From a virus, in IMG/VR virus record IMGVR_UViG_3300025030_000021, positions 1 to 54,661 of that record: a DNA stretch of 54,661 nt. One strand, written 5' to 3'. A program made the translations under genes and the position numbers. The notes beneath the pieces were generated by a model. It searched no databases. It saw nothing but the letters and a program-made list of their open reading frames with translations, and was not told the DNA's origin. The number at the start of each line of letters is the position of its first letter. The stretch's first letter is position 1. Positions 16,341 through 53,682 of this stretch are shown one piece after another.

Positions 16341-17351
16341 ATGAAAGTAAACATGAAGCCACACGCCACCCTCCCCGGTTGGTACACTCTCGACTACCGG
16401 CCCGATGGATCGGGAGGGAAGAGATATAGGGACCACGTCAAGGGGTTTGACGAGGCGCAAGCGGCCAAAGCGGAGCTGGAGTGTAGGTCAATAGACCCCA
16501 CGGATACTGCTACCTCCCCCCGCCTTAGCGACATAGTGGGCGAATATCTAGCGTGGGTAAAGCGCAACCAGGCCGACGCCACTTACGCGGGGAAGCTGTG
16601 CCGGTTTACAAAGCACATCATCCCCGCCCTTGGCGATAAACGAGCGGCTGACATATCGCAGCGGGTGCTCGATGGATACGGGGCGCACATGGCGCGTGGG
16701 AGCTTCCGACAGGACTTGGTAGATATACAGGCGATGCTCGGATGGATGGTAAAGCGCAAATATGCCGAGCCGCTGAAATTCAAGCCGGAACTGCCAACGT
16801 ATCGGGCGAAGATTAAGCACCTCCCCTGCGCTAGCGATATATTGAAATTCATCGCCGCGCTCCGGTTTCCGATGCACCAAGCCGTCTGCCAGCTAATGCT
16901 CTACACCGGCCTGCGGTGGAATGAGGCGCGGAGTCTAAGGTGGGAGGATTACCGAGGATCGGAGATATTGGCACGGGTGACGAAGACGGATAATCCCGAG
17001 ATAATTGCCATCCCCGCCGCTTGTGCCGAGTGGTTTAAATCGCATAAACAGCCGAGAGGGTACATATTCAGCGCGGACAAGGGCAAGACTGCGCTTTGTA
17101 ACTTAGGTCGTCCGCTGAGGACTGCATTCGTCGTGTCAGGGGTATATATGACCGCTCACATGTTCCGCCACGCCAGCGCTACGTTCCTCTATGAGTTGAC
17201 CGGCGACATTTACGCGGTTCAGCACCATCTGCGGCATAGCAAGGTGACCACTAGCCAGATATATACGCGGTACTCGGCAGTTCAGCGGCGAGGGTCGGTT
17301 GACATATTGGCGGGGATGCTGGACGAGTTGGGAAGGGGGCAAAAACCCTAA
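16341..17351 (+). CDS. int: Tyrosine-family site-specific integrase
   Basis: 336 residues. C-terminal catalytic residues are all present: R192 in TGLRWNEARSLRW, K215, H273 and R276 in HMFRHA, H299 in LRHSK and nucleophile Y308 in SQIYTRY. The N-terminal part has a SAM-like core-binding domain (about 62-150) and an arm-binding-like start (MKPHATLPGWYTLDYRPDGS). It recombines attP with a host attB to insert the prophage. Putative arm sites lie directly downstream. An obvious excisionase is not adjacent; small HTH proteins in the 37-38 kb island are candidates. Confidence 0.92.
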   Translation: MKVNMKPHATLPGWYTLDYRPDGSGGKRYRDHVKGFDEAQAAKAELECRSIDPTDTATSPRLSDIVGEYLAWVKRNQADATYAGKLCRFTKHIIPALGDKRAADISQRVLDGYGAHMARGSFRQDLVDIQAMLGWMVKRKYAEPLKFKPELPTYRAKIKHLPCASDILKFIAALRFPMHQAVCQLMLYTGLRWNEARSLRWEDYRGSEILARVTKTDNPEIIAIPAACAEWFKSHKQPRGYIFSADKGKTALCNLGRPLRTAFVVSGVYMTAHMFRHASATFLYELTGDIYAVQHHLRHSKVTTSQIYTRYSAVQRRGSVDILAGMLDELGRGQKP

Positions 17352-48929: not shown

Positions 48930-49232
48930 TTACTCGTATTCAGCCGATGTGAGCGCCTGGTGCAACAGCCCCGCTAGCGCGTCCACGAATCCCTCGTTAT
49001 CGTTAAGCTGCCCCTGCTCTGTGTGATATATGCACATGTGGACGAGTTCGTGAATGAACGTGTGCTCAAGGCTACTCTGCGTTATCGGGTGTGAAGGAGA
49101 CGGCGGGACAAGTTTAATCCACTTCGCCTCAAAGCTGCATGACCCGAAGGAATTGCGCTCATAGAACCTCTCGGGGTCCTCTTTTACCTCTACCGTGTGG
49201 CCGAGTAGCTTAAATCTTTTAGGAATCAACAT
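48930..49232 (-). CDS. HExxH metallopeptidase-like protein
   Basis: 100 residues. FIHELVHMCIYHTE holds an HELVH zinc motif with a further acidic helix (NEGFVDALAGLL), as in SprT/ImmA-type zinc peptidases, but the protein is short. Overlaps the HNH gene by 14 bases. Could process a virion or host protein; activity unproven. Confidence 0.7.
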   Translation of the reverse strand: MLIPKRFKLLGHTVEVKEDPERFYERNSFGSCSFEAKWIKLVPPSPSHPITQSSLEHTFIHELVHMCIYHTEQGQLNDNEGFVDALAGLLHQALTSAEYE

Positions 49233-49791
49233 GTTGCGTATCCCTCGTTTTAATTACGGCGGCGCATAATTCAAAGAATCGGTCTTCACTGAAAACGCTT
49301 TCCATCCTATTGATATCTTTATGCACCCATTGTAAGTTTTCCAGAGTGTAACCGGCATCACTGTCTATGCGATCTAGTGATGCGGTGAACTTACGGCTAT
49401 ATGTCCCTTTCGCTTGTATATCCATACCAGAAAGTTTGCATTTATAGCTTTGCTTTCCTAGCAGGTCGGATATATCTTCAATGGTTAAATTATCATCAAA
49501 AGGTATCTTTCTCACTCTTGCAGATTTTTTTATATTCGTCCAATGGCCAAGACCTATATTATCGGTCCCTTCCCACCCCGGATTTCCAGGGCCTCGCTGC
49601 TTAGATATGCACCCGCATGATTTTATTCTCACAAAAGATGATGCCATTACATCTCTAACACTGCCGCAGTGGCATTTAACGACCCATAGCGCATGGTTAT
49701 GTTTGTCTTTATGGGTGCTTCGCCCTAAAGCAGTACATCCATTTACCACCATCCCCGTAATATCCCCGTATCTACGCCTGGTATTTTTCAC
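49219..49791 (-). CDS. HNH homing-type endonuclease, GTG start
   Basis: 190 residues from GTG at 49791, overlapping the previous stop as GTGA. N-terminal Zn-like CHCGSVRDV and CGCISKQR, then the HNH core YKCKLSGM, SLDRIDSDAGYTLENLQWVH and KDINRMES. Typical free-standing phage HNH enzyme, probably a mobile intron-less homing gene inserted next to terS. Confidence 0.85.
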   Translation of the reverse strand: MKNTRRRYGDITGMVVNGCTALGRSTHKDKHNHALWVVKCHCGSVRDVMASSFVRIKSCGCISKQRGPGNPGWEGTDNIGLGHWTNIKKSARVRKIPFDDNLTIEDISDLLGKQSYKCKLSGMDIQAKGTYSRKFTASLDRIDSDAGYTLENLQWVHKDINRMESVFSEDRFFELCAAVIKTRDTQHVDS

Positions 49792-50159: not shown

Positions 50160-50523
50160 TGGCCTGTTCGCATCACCCGCGATTAGCCTTTATGCCACGC
50201 GAGCGAGGGGGCAAACTATTCCCGTTGACCTAGTTTCCAATACGACCGCACGGGAGAGGTAGTCGCGTAAGGGCTCTTTTTTGGGCAGTGAGCATCTACC
50301 GCCTCCATAAGGAGGTCTTCCAAACCCGATGCCTATAAGCTGAGATTAAGCAGCAGGGCAGAGCGGGAACTCAATAAGGTATCCCGATATTAGCGTCGGG
50401 AGTCGCGCCTTGCTACATAGCCGACCCTTGACCCGTGGGAGCAGGATACTCGACCAGTGGGAGGGCGACACCCCGCAGGAGGGCCGCTGGGCTAGCGTTA
50501 TACGCTATGTTGATTTCTCAACT
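50160..50523 (-). ncRNA. Structured leader RNA of late operon 1
   Basis: About 360 nt without a gene between the promoter at 50530-50558 and the first gene. Stems (plus coordinates): GTTGA/TCAAC with a GAAA tetraloop on the minus strand (50509-50522), TAGCGT/ACGCTA (50493-50507), TCCCGA/TCGGGA (50382-50401), CCTCC/GGAGG with a TTAT loop (50302-50315) inside GCATC/GATGC (50292-50332), CCCGT/ACGGG (50221-50254). Motifs CTCCTGCGG (50473-50481) and CTGGTCGAGTATCC (50444-50457) recur in the other late leader. Confidence 0.6.
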
Positions 50524-50529
50524 TGCCCC

Positions 50530-50579
50530 ACGGTACACTAAAACACCCACTATGTCAAGTGGATTCTTTTCGGAGTTAA
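50530..50579 (-). promoter_or_regulatory. Late operon 1 promoter with palindrome box
   Basis: TTGACA (50558-50553), 17-base spacer, TACCGT (50535-50530) on the minus strand; box TTAACTCCGAAAA (50579-50567) eight bases upstream. The -10 TACCGT and following GTGGG match the promoter at 53044-53072. Confidence 0.72.
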
Positions 50580-50657
50580 GTAAACCGGCGCGTGCATTCC
50601 AGTATGGCGCAAAACCATCCGGCTGCGGCCGAGAAGTTGCGGTTCATTGCCGCTCAT
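50550..50657 (-). CDS. 35-residue hypothetical protein
   Basis: Frame from ATG at 50657, coupled as ATGA to the 17-residue frame; MSGNEPQLLGRSRMVLRHTG... Its 3' end covers the -35 of the next promoter. Weak support. Confidence 0.3.
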   Translation of the reverse strand: MSGNEPQLLGRSRMVLRHTGMHAPVYLTPKRIHLT

Positions 50658-50707
50658 CCCAGATTTACCCCAAACAGCACCATTATTGCCACATCCCATC
50701 CGTCCAT
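50654..50707 (-). CDS. 17-residue peptide
   Basis: MDGWDVAIMVLFGVNLG after a very strong AGGAGGGGATAGT. Hydrophobic. The frame is also open further upstream from a TTG, so this may be the end of a 37-residue protein. Uncertain. Confidence 0.3.
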   Translation of the reverse strand: MDGWDVAIMVLFGVNLG

Positions 50708-50782
50708 ACTATCCCCTCCTAAGTTTGCAACCACAGCGGCTGCGCCGACTCCTGTACTCCGTGCCAATCCTCCGCCGCGCTC

Positions 50783-50917
50783 CTAACGTGTATCGGGGCT
50801 CCACCCTATTCTGCGCTGTGCGGTCTTGCCGCATTTACGGCAAACTCTATGCTCTAAAAAAATATCCCCGAATGTAAACCTCCCGCCCCATGCCGCCCAT
50901 CTGTGCCAGCAAAACAT
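50783..50917 (-). CDS. Small zinc-binding protein
   Basis: 44 residues from ATG at 50917 with AAGGAG nine bases upstream. CWHRW at the start and CRKCGK later (C-x-H...C-x-x-C) form a compact zinc site of a type common in small phage proteins. Follows the phosphoesterase gene. Confidence 0.55.
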   Translation of the reverse strand: MFCWHRWAAWGGRFTFGDIFLEHRVCRKCGKTAQRRIGWSPDTR

Positions 50918-50923
50918 ATCTAT

Positions 50924-52840
50924 CTACTCCTTAAAAAATGGTATCCCGAGCTGGTGAGTGATGAGCTTCGACCCCCACAAAACCTTGCCGTGAATGATCG
51001 GGACGAACTGTAAATGATACTGTTTCCCCTCGTTCTCAAATGTTGCCACTCCCATCCCATGCTGCCAGTTCGCAACATCATCCTCGATGTACTCGGGGCT
51101 AAGGTCGCACCCGCACCCGCCCTCTATCCACACGTAAGAGCCGCCGCGCACTGTGCGGTAAAAGGCTCCACCTCGATGAGTATTCAGAGTTACCGTCACC
51201 TTGCCGTTGCGCCTAACTAGAACCGTGCCGTTATCTACGCTGACACACCAAACCTTGCCGCTATAGTTCTCCACAGTGATATTCTTTTTCCCAACCCTGC
51301 ACATGCTTCTAGTGTTGACCGTCAGCACAAAAGTAGATTGGTTCAAAATTTTGGATGATCTGTATCCGTTCCTAGCAAACATTTCCTGCAAGATGTCTAT
51401 CTCTGATTCCTTATTACTGCATATCTGATAGCTGTTCGCAGCCGATGAATTTTTGCACCCATCAGTTATAGAGTATTCGTCTAGCGCGACACTGACAAGT
51501 TCCGATGTCAAGTTTGCGAACCATGCCGGAAGCTGTTTTACTTGTCCGATTATGTTAGTATATTTTTTTGAGGATTCACAACTGACCCGTATTTTAGTTG
51601 TGCCTTTATCACCTTTTGAGCTTACACTGTAAGTCATCCCGAGTGTGTCCAACAATCCTATGAGGTGCGATATTTTCCTTTCCTTTTTCATGTGCCATCG
51701 TATCGCGTTGCCCTCGTAATGGCCGTCTGTGACAATATTTATAATCAGTCGTACCACGTTTTCATCAAGGTCAATGTTTTGTTCGTTGGGATTTGATTTT
51801 GCGCTGTTGTAGAACAACATTTCCCTGCCTGTGTTTATTATTTCTTGAGCTTCTGCTTCCTTTTGCTTGCCTCGCTTAGTCTCAAAAATAAGCCCGTGCT
51901 TATCGGTTACCATTAGGTCCACGGTTGTAGTCTTAATTTTGTGCAATTGGCGGTAATCGGCGTATTGGTGGAATTCGTTAATTCCGTTCCACTCAAACTG
52001 CCAAGATTTTTTGTTCATGGTGCCAACTTCATCTGCGGCAACTAAATCAAAGCCTTTGACCCACCCGCGCTTAGTCAGTATTTCAGTTTCTTCGTCAAAG
52101 CAATGGCCCGACATGCCGCTAGTCCCTTCCCGCGTATATTCAGCATTTGCGGTATAGGCTGATTGCTGGCGCACTATATGACCATGCTTGAACAGAGCGC
52201 CCTTGTACTGATAGTTTGGAGCGTAGCTGATATTTAACTCTTGGAGCCGGAACAGGTTAGGCAATTCCAGCGCCCTAATGCCATGCAGCGCCGTTGCGTT
52301 GCTCCAGAGGTATCTTTGCAGCCGGTCGGTATGGTTGGATTTCAATAGGCGGATTGTAGCGTCGGGGCAATACCCCCTTAGCCGCTTCATCAACTTAAAC
52401 GTTTCGTCTATCTCGTCCTGCAACTGGTGCGCCCTGGATGGATTCTTGTTGAACTTGGAAAGCGCGTAAAAGTCATGCAGTTCGTGAAGGATGATTTCGT
52501 TCGGTTGGATATGGCGGCAGAATTGGAGTTGGCAGTCAACCGCTTTCGCATCATGGTACGGGACATGCCAGTCATGCAGCGAGACGATGGTGTGATACCC
52601 TGCCACGGCTTCCGGCGCTGTAGAACTTTGCACAATATTTGTTGATTTATCTACAGCCTTCGCCCCCATCTTCGGCACCCACCCCGGCTCCCCCTCCCTC
52701 GGCATCTGGAAGACCATGCGGTTTGCCTTTATCACCCTCTGCGCCATGGAGGTTGTGCAACCTGCGGCCTTCGACAACTTATCTCTGCCAAAGGTGGGAT
52801 TCTGCGCGAATACGGATTCAGCGTGTTGGCGGGGGGTCAT
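50924..52840 (-). CDS. Calcineurin-like metallophosphoesterase precursor with intein
   Basis: 638-residue precursor from ATG at 52840 (ATGA coupling to the upstream stop). N-terminal helix-turn-helix-like part (MTPRQHAESVFAQNPTFGRD). Phosphoesterase motifs: LHDWHVPYHD, NEIILHELHDFYALS, LLKSNHTD and KHGH. The last metal motif SGH|THRGG is split by a 307-residue intein (C247-N553). Removing it gives a 331-residue enzyme. Mre11-like phage phosphoesterases act on DNA ends or RNA; substrate here unknown. It heads late operon 1 upstream of TerS, so it may help DNA processing for packaging. Confidence 0.88.
   Translation of the reverse strand: MTPRQHAESVFAQNPTFGRDKLSKAAGCTTSMAQRVIKANRMVFQMPREGEPGWVPKMGAKAVDKSTNIVQSSTAPEAVAGYHTIVSLHDWHVPYHDAKAVDCQLQFCRHIQPNEIILHELHDFYALSKFNKNPSRAHQLQDEIDETFKLMKRLRGYCPDATIRLLKSNHTDRLQRYLWSNATALHGIRALELPNLFRLQELNISYAPNYQYKGALFKHGHIVRQQSAYTANAEYTREGTSGMSGHCFDEETEILTKRGWVKGFDLVAADEVGTMNKKSWQFEWNGINEFHQYADYRQLHKIKTTTVDLMVTDKHGLIFETKRGKQKEAEAQEIINTGREMLFYNSAKSNPNEQNIDLDENVVRLIINIVTDGHYEGNAIRWHMKKERKISHLIGLLDTLGMTYSVSSKGDKGTTKIRVSCESSKKYTNIIGQVKQLPAWFANLTSELVSVALDEYSITDGCKNSSAANSYQICSNKESEIDILQEMFARNGYRSSKILNQSTFVLTVNTRSMCRVGKKNITVENYSGKVWCVSVDNGTVLVRRNGKVTVTLNTHRGGAFYRTVRGGSYVWIEGGCGCDLSPEYIEDDVANWQHGMGVATFENEGKQYHLQFVPIIHGKVLWGSKLITHQLGIPFFKE
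51182..52102 (-). other. Intein with degenerate LAGLIDADG endonuclease
   Basis: Block A: CFDEETEILTKRGWV (Cys1 nucleophile). Block B: VTDKHGLIFE. Central homing endonuclease with two DOD-like motifs, RLIINIVTDGHYEG and VALDEYSITDGC. Blocks F/G: VWCVSVDNGTVLVRRNG then VTVTLN, next residue Thr. The penultimate residue is Leu, not the usual His, so splicing may rely on a compensating His/Asp in block F or be slow. Insertion lies exactly between the His and Thr of the GHTH metal motif. Confidence 0.88.
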
Positions 52841-53092: not shown

Positions 53093-53407
53093 TCACGGGG
53101 CGAGCCAAGGACGCGATTTGAACTTTGCGTACCATGCGGCCTGCGTGTCCAATATCGCCGCTTCGGGGTCAACCTCCCACCATGCCCATATCATCCGCCC
53201 CTGACTGCCGTGCTGCCGCATGTCGTGGTGGACTCGGCATAAAGGCAATGTTCTCTCGTCGCTGGGGCGCGTTCCTATTCCTCCCTGGCCCTCGGCTTGC
53301 TCGTGATGGGGATCATCGGCAGGGAATTGGCATACGCAGCACGGGAGGGATTTTACATAGTCAAGGTATTTACGGGACCGCCACACTGTCGGCTTCGGGA
53401 ACATCAT
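53093..53407 (-). CDS. DUF968-like HNH nuclease
   Basis: 104 residues from ATG at 53407 (ATGA overlap; a longer Arg-rich extension is a shadow). LPCCVCQFPADDPHHEQAEG, then PLCRVHHDMRQHG is the HNH/DUF968 pattern with Cys zinc pairs and catalytic HH. Such small nucleases help phage recombination or junction resolution. Last gene of the early region before the late operon 1 promoter. Confidence 0.8.
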   Translation of the reverse strand: MMFPKPTVWRSRKYLDYVKSLPCCVCQFPADDPHHEQAEGQGGIGTRPSDERTLPLCRVHHDMRQHGSQGRMIWAWWEVDPEAAILDTQAAWYAKFKSRPWLAP

Positions 53408-53682
53408 GATATCACCCGCCAAAATTCGCAGTTTTCCTTCTTCCGGCCCGGCATGGCGTGCGTGCAGTCGTGGTAATCGCCGGTATCCATAACGCACCCA
53501 TCGGGCGGCTCTCCGGCCATTAGGTCGCAATGGCATCCGAACACTTCCGGCACGAGCAATTTTCTTGCCGCTTGGAGATGTGCGATTAGCGCGTTTAGCC
53601 GCTCTAGCACAAAAACATGTGTGCCAGACCCGCATATAACAACCTCCACCCTGTTATCTTCCAGCAATCTTGGTTCTCTCAT
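53404..53682 (-). CDS. Hypothetical protein with GCHC domain
   Basis: 92 residues; ATGA overlaps on both sides. N-terminal half with LEDNRVEVVICGSGTHVFV and a helix; C-terminal ~45 residues VPEVFGCHCDLMAGEPPDGC ... DC...CEFW are a copy of the C-terminal domain of the gene at 53837-54394. Cys/His-rich, probably metal-binding. Function unknown. Confidence 0.65.
   Translation of the reverse strand: MREPRLLEDNRVEVVICGSGTHVFVLERLNALIAHLQAARKLLVPEVFGCHCDLMAGEPPDGCVMDTGDYHDCTHAMPGRKKENCEFWRVIS

Follow-up and report, generated by a model that had tools for sequence, protein, structure and literature searches.

A predicted class 1 intein splitting metal motif V of a calcineurin-like phage phosphoesterase

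The phosphoesterase gene found in one 54,661-base virus record (IMG/VR IMGVR_UViG_3300025030_000021, the whole of which is called the window here) is very probably interrupted by a full-length intein of class 1 that includes a homing endonuclease of the DOD (LAGLIDADG) type. The intein lies in motif V of a calcineurin-like phosphoesterase and is predicted to splice and to home. We observe the anatomy of this intein, its exact insertion, its predicted fold, its conserved core catalytic residues, its membership of a clade of inteins at the same motif, and its foreign composition. The features are collected in Table 1, and a slash marks the intein boundaries in all motifs below.

Table 1 Features of the intein-containing phosphoesterase gene in the window
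Feature	Position	Strand	Evidence or remark
Intein-containing metallophosphoesterase gene	50924..52840	-	638-aa precursor; phrog_221 match
N-extein, 246 residues	52103..52840	-	Invariant columns, alignments A1 and A4
Intein, 307 aa, Cys1 to Asn307	51182..52102	-	Translation, tblastn, model, Foldseek
Splicing block A (CFDEETEILTKRGW)	52061..52102	-	Cys1 nucleophile; C1 in 34/34 relatives
Splicing block B (DLMVTDKHGLIFET), T66-x-x-H69	51878..51919	-	T66 in 33/34, H69 in 34/34 relatives
First DOD motif LIINIVTDG, acidic D126	51722..51748	-	D or E in 34/34; LAGLIDADG fold in model
Second DOD motif LDEYSITDG, acidic D214	51458..51484	-	D in 34/34
Splicing blocks F and G (KVWCVSVDNGTVLVRRNGKVTVTLN)	51182..51256	-	Penultimate Leu306, terminal Asn307
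C-extein, 85 residues	50927..51181	-	Completes motif V with T554-H555-R556; +1 nucleophile T554

Results

The insert is free of stop codons from CFDEETEIL to VTVTLN and makes up residues 247-553 of the frame, between His246 and Thr554 of SGH/THR, with EGTSGMSGH before it and THRGGAFYRT after it. L007 and L008, two intein-free homologues from IMG/VR with an alignment identity of 52% to the window protein, align across the whole extein and have an ungapped SGASGHTHR. GH[T/S]H is also unbroken in L009, L010, L011, L013, and L014; these intein-free homologues are few and metagenomic. Since such relatives read motif V ungapped, the insert entered between the two residues without loss or duplication. 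Both histidines of the GHxH motif bind metal in the calcineurin-like fold, and the intein thus separates two metal ligands. The intein was not found in the six virus records of the intein-free relatives, in a search that had no positive control.

By tblastn against 50,697 phage records, the insert matches inteins from residue 1 through residue 307 (best E 7e-30), which supports both boundaries independently. The proteins carrying the matched inteins include the ribonucleotide reductase of Salmonella phage SP3, the thymidylate synthase of an Escherichia phage, DNA polymerase, and others, and the intein portion of the protein also matches families of PhoH, ribonucleotide reductase, and thymidylate synthase that contain inteins. 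A preliminary description of this DNA had placed a 307-residue intein at exactly this point, and the ungapped alignment of the extein to intein-free phosphoesterases and the full-length phage intein matches of residues 247-553 bear it out. The predicted spliced product of 331 residues is likewise correct as described, counted from the start at 52840; alternative starts occur upstream, as far as 52894.

The host protein matches the metallo-phosphoesterase family phrog_221 (E 6.3e-29, residues 77-247), whereas Pfam Metallophos gave no match for it. The motif names I to V are those of the calcineurin-like fold. All five (D-x-H, GDxxD, GNH, H, and GHxH) can be placed in the extein: the N-extein contains motif I (D90-W-H92), a motif II-like H-E120-x-x-D123, motif III (N169-H170), motif IV (H219), and the first half of motif V (G245-H246). 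Motif II is the one that deviates: in the window protein (at 52472-52486) and its closest relatives, H-E-x-H-D takes the place of G-D-x-x-D, which the distant relative L014 retains as GDLLD. The probable role of the extein is that of a phosphoesterase. A function as recombination directionality factor (RDF) of a serine integrase, of the Bxb1 gp47 type, was considered and is unlikely, because the extein is only 24-28% identical to RDFs and the integrase at 16341-17351, which matches phrog_1 among the window ORFs scanned (a subset of all ORFs), is read as being of the tyrosine type.

Located upstream of the terminase block, the phosphoesterase gene has an HNH endonuclease gene on either side, at 49219-49791 (minus strand, phrog_3322/1035) and 53093-53635 (minus strand, phrog_96). 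The stretch of about 740 bases (50180-50920) that separates the phosphoesterase from the next ORF on the minus strand contains no convincing gene, and Rfam gave no hit there even at a threshold of E 1; a group I intron beside the gene was rejected for this reason. Promoter- or terminator-like sites around the gene were not above chance, and a BEN domain match was under the cut-off; both were discarded.

Cys1, the T-x-x-H motif, the C-terminal Asn307 with Thr554 at +1, the exact in-frame insertion, and the predicted Hint fold all correspond to a class 1 intein. The penultimate His, which is common but not obligatory in this class, is absent and Leu306 is found instead; several active inteins are known to lack this His (PMC7664689, PMC5050341). 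In alignment A3, the penultimate residue is Gly in 31 of the 34 relatives, with the L, L, and Q exceptions confined to motif-V members, and a wider intein set contains other rare exceptions, such as HN and SN. C286 is present in 34/34 relatives of the same alignment. Two residues of the class 3 W-C-T triplet, Cys286 and Thr305, occur in the window intein, but class 3 is excluded because Cys1 is present and the block B position is occupied by Leu71, not Trp.

The intein is only faintly visible to single-sequence searches. The curated intein thresholds of Pfam and NCBIfam are not reached by the window protein alone (14 bits vs 24.5 for TIGR01445), although 14 of the 34 relatives in A3 match the Pfam intein splicing domain. 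A scan of viral contigs with the single protein gave no matches, whereas an alignment of six inteins did. Similarly, single proteins found nothing in a sequence search of the PDB, and the intein profile found inteins and homing endonucleases.

The AF2 model of the intein, built on A3, has a pLDDT of 95.9 and a pTM of 0.92. With this model, Foldseek returns the TliVMA, PhoVMA, PI-PfuI, and PI-SceI inteins at the top of the PDB hits (E 1e-15 to 1e-9 for TliVMA, PI-PfuI, and PI-SceI) and, from a viral library, phage inteins including those of Proteus and Rheinheimera phage phosphoesterases. The two acidic motifs and a LAGLIDADG fold, matched by Foldseek to I-DmoI and PI-SceI, identify the inserted domain as a DOD endonuclease. 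Its DOD motifs had been described as degenerate, which is right insofar as they differ from the textbook LAGLIDADG; nevertheless, they still hold their acidic residues, as shown by the conservation of both positions (Table 1). The AF2 model of the whole precursor, based on 8 sequences, has a pLDDT of 58.1, too poor to judge metal binding before splicing. The weak single-sequence profile scores, including one for Hint_2, could also be expected if the enzyme had acquired a Hint-type autoprocessing domain or an ordinary endonuclease domain by fusion. However, the terminal Asn followed by Thr at +1, the exact insertion between adjacent motif residues, the full-length intein match with both boundaries, and the two-domain intein fold speak against such a fusion, to which we assign a negligible probability.

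Searches with intein alignments yielded four further inteins at the GH/[T/S]H point, all in IMG/VR sequences, so that the insertion point is common to the window and at least four other environmental phages. The closest, in L024, is 45% identical to the window intein, ends TLN/SHT, and interrupts a phrog_1745 protein, named DNA transfer protein. That of L025 (35%, TQN/THR) occurs in an RDF-like phrog_221 protein, 59% identical to that of RidgeCB, and those of L138 (35%) and L139 (32%), both ending TQN/THD, in phrog_7339 exonucleases. All four resemble the window intein in their insertion point and in their penultimate residues (L, L, Q, Q, and Q in the order window, L024, L025, L138, L139, with T, S, T, T, and T at +1), and differ from it in being hosted by other phosphoesterases. 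The five inteins form a single clade (99/93, in 98% of the bootstrap trees), within which the branch joining the window and L024 has a support of 100/99. In contrast, the exteins across this clade are mostly under BLAST detection and barely alignable: between the window and L024, the inteins are 45% identical and the exteins 22%. L138 and L139 are the sole pair with a higher identity between the exteins (44%) than between the inteins (36%). These sequence comparisons fit a transfer of the motif-V inteins between phosphoesterase families at the shared motif. We found no description of motif-V inteins in the open-access library searched, outside which the site may have been reported; motif V is a newly located insertion point for an intein of a known kind.

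The distribution of the penultimate residue also bears on the state of the insert. A decayed insert, which would have lost splicing and inactivated a phosphoesterase that the phage can do without, would explain why Leu306 stands where the family has a near-invariant Gly. Nevertheless, the 307-codon frame is intact, the remaining core residues are all kept, the extein motifs are intact on either side, and the L024 intein, from another phage, has the same LN ending, so that decay appears extremely doubtful. A functional intein remains the preferred reading, and since Leu or Gln is conserved at this position across the motif-V clade, it does not look like random decay.

The preliminary description had regarded both the penultimate Leu and the +1 Thr as atypical. 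This holds for Leu, which is neither His nor the usual Gly, but not for Thr, since three residues are standard at +1 and Thr is among them (PMC7664689); both are common to the motif-V clade and are therefore traits of a lineage, not individual oddities. The same residues had been taken as a sign of conditional splicing, with a switch role for late operon 1 that we consider speculation. In such a switch, the penultimate Leu and the junction histidines would slow splicing or make it dependent on a signal, and the enzyme would be freed under some condition. The retention of L or Q across the clade, at a position where Gly or His would be usual, is compatible with this proposal, as are the regulation of other inteins by zinc and oxidants (PMC7360933) and the effect of N-extein histidines on the splicing of Mtu SufB (PMC8891592). 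However, no signal, regulator, or phenotype was seen, and a penultimate residue other than His is the rule among the phage relatives. Moreover, the tested phosphoesterase intein, that of an RDF with a penultimate Gly, splices completely, and introducing His (G316H) slows it to more than 5 h for about half of the reaction (PMC5050341). Altogether, a conditional switch seems quite unlikely. It is very improbable that the motif-V clade is metal-responsive, with the extein histidines at -1 and +2, on either side of Cys1, holding a metal ion at the splice junction, the metal supply controlling splicing and through it the activation of the metalloenzyme, and L or Q selected for this purpose.

Discussion

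The base composition of the intein is foreign to its surroundings: its GC content is 42.9%, vs 53.7-54.3% for the exteins and 54% for the gene, and among 538 windows of its length (921 bp) in this DNA, no other is as GC-poor. Together with the single motif-V clade spread over barely alignable hosts, this lowest-GC stretch points to a lineage that probably homes on motif V codons. The window and the AT-rich L024 locus (27% GC) have exactly the same junction DNA, TCGGGCCAT/-CTCAT, even though it includes codons that are rare in the L024 extein (TCG for 4 of 41 Ser, GGC for 3 of 28 Gly). This could result from co-conversion or from a constraint on the target, but it is a single case, noticed post hoc, and may be due to chance; the exact junction pattern was not found in viral contigs.

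We infer splicing, nuclease activity, and an inactive precursor enzyme, and propose the following mechanism. The Hint domain would excise itself post-translationally: Cys1 would attack the His246-Cys1 bond, the acyl group would pass to the +1 Thr, and cyclisation of Asn307 would lead to sealing of the SGH/THR bond and to the 331-residue enzyme. It is plausible that the enzyme is unable to bind metal before splicing. The endonuclease would most likely cut intein-free motif-V codons in other phages, into which the intein would then be copied by recombination, and in this way the lineage may have moved by homing between distant phosphoesterase families.

These results add metal motif V to the insertion points of phage phosphoesterase inteins, with one intein lineage in the same two-histidine motif of barely alignable families and related inteins at motifs II and III. 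The metal motifs of phosphoesterases therefore look like a recurrent homing target. In addition, the clade with penultimate L or Q offers a clean natural set for the study of asparagine cyclisation without the usual histidine or glycine.

The host class is less unusual than had been described: inteins in mycobacteriophage RDF metallophosphoesterases have been known since 2016, when Kelley et al. reported them beside a motif that is conserved in the metallophosphoesterase domain (PMC5050341), and others are found at motifs II and III. The RDF inteins (Bethlehem gp51 type, RidgeCB gp51) are, like that of the window, DOD inteins without a penultimate His, located beside a metal motif of a phrog_221 host. 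The RidgeCB gp51 intein (JN398369) differs in that it occupies motif III (GNHD/C..GN/S), has a penultimate Gly, is about 25% identical, and falls on another branch of the tree. The phosphoesterases of Rheinheimera phage Barba and Klebsiella phage fENko-Kae01 also carry an intein in motif III, at GNH/C.

Several other inteins were observed. A phosphoesterase at L030:923-3727 (L030 is identical in sequence to L104, a 47,809-base contig from a Thermodesulfobacteriota MAG) has two, in motif II (GGDI/C..GN/CEF) and in motif V (MGH/C..GN/SHY); the latter branches outside the clade of the window, indicating that motif V was hit at least twice. In L027:1811-3940, an SbcD-like exonuclease subunit, a related intein directly follows the motif-V GHIH. 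The crAssphage cr53_1 gp75 (L003:2249-3754), annotated as a phosphoesterase, resembles a peptidase of the M15 type that an intein interrupts at SGH/C..GN/C, and its several in-frame stops suggest stop-codon recoding. A further related intein, at L028:2501-3451, apparently ends in Gln instead of Asn (ITITGQ/S).

Proteus phage RS1pmA and L057 again show a metal motif of a phage phosphoesterase interrupted by a related intein, but in motif II (GDE/C..GN/CD) and on a separate branch. The best named match, the intein of Bacteroides phage BF766P4 (29.5% identity, E 7e-30), is hosted by an unrelated enzyme, an M15 peptidase, and ends QGN/C, yet it likewise begins straight after a metal-motif His (SDH/C).
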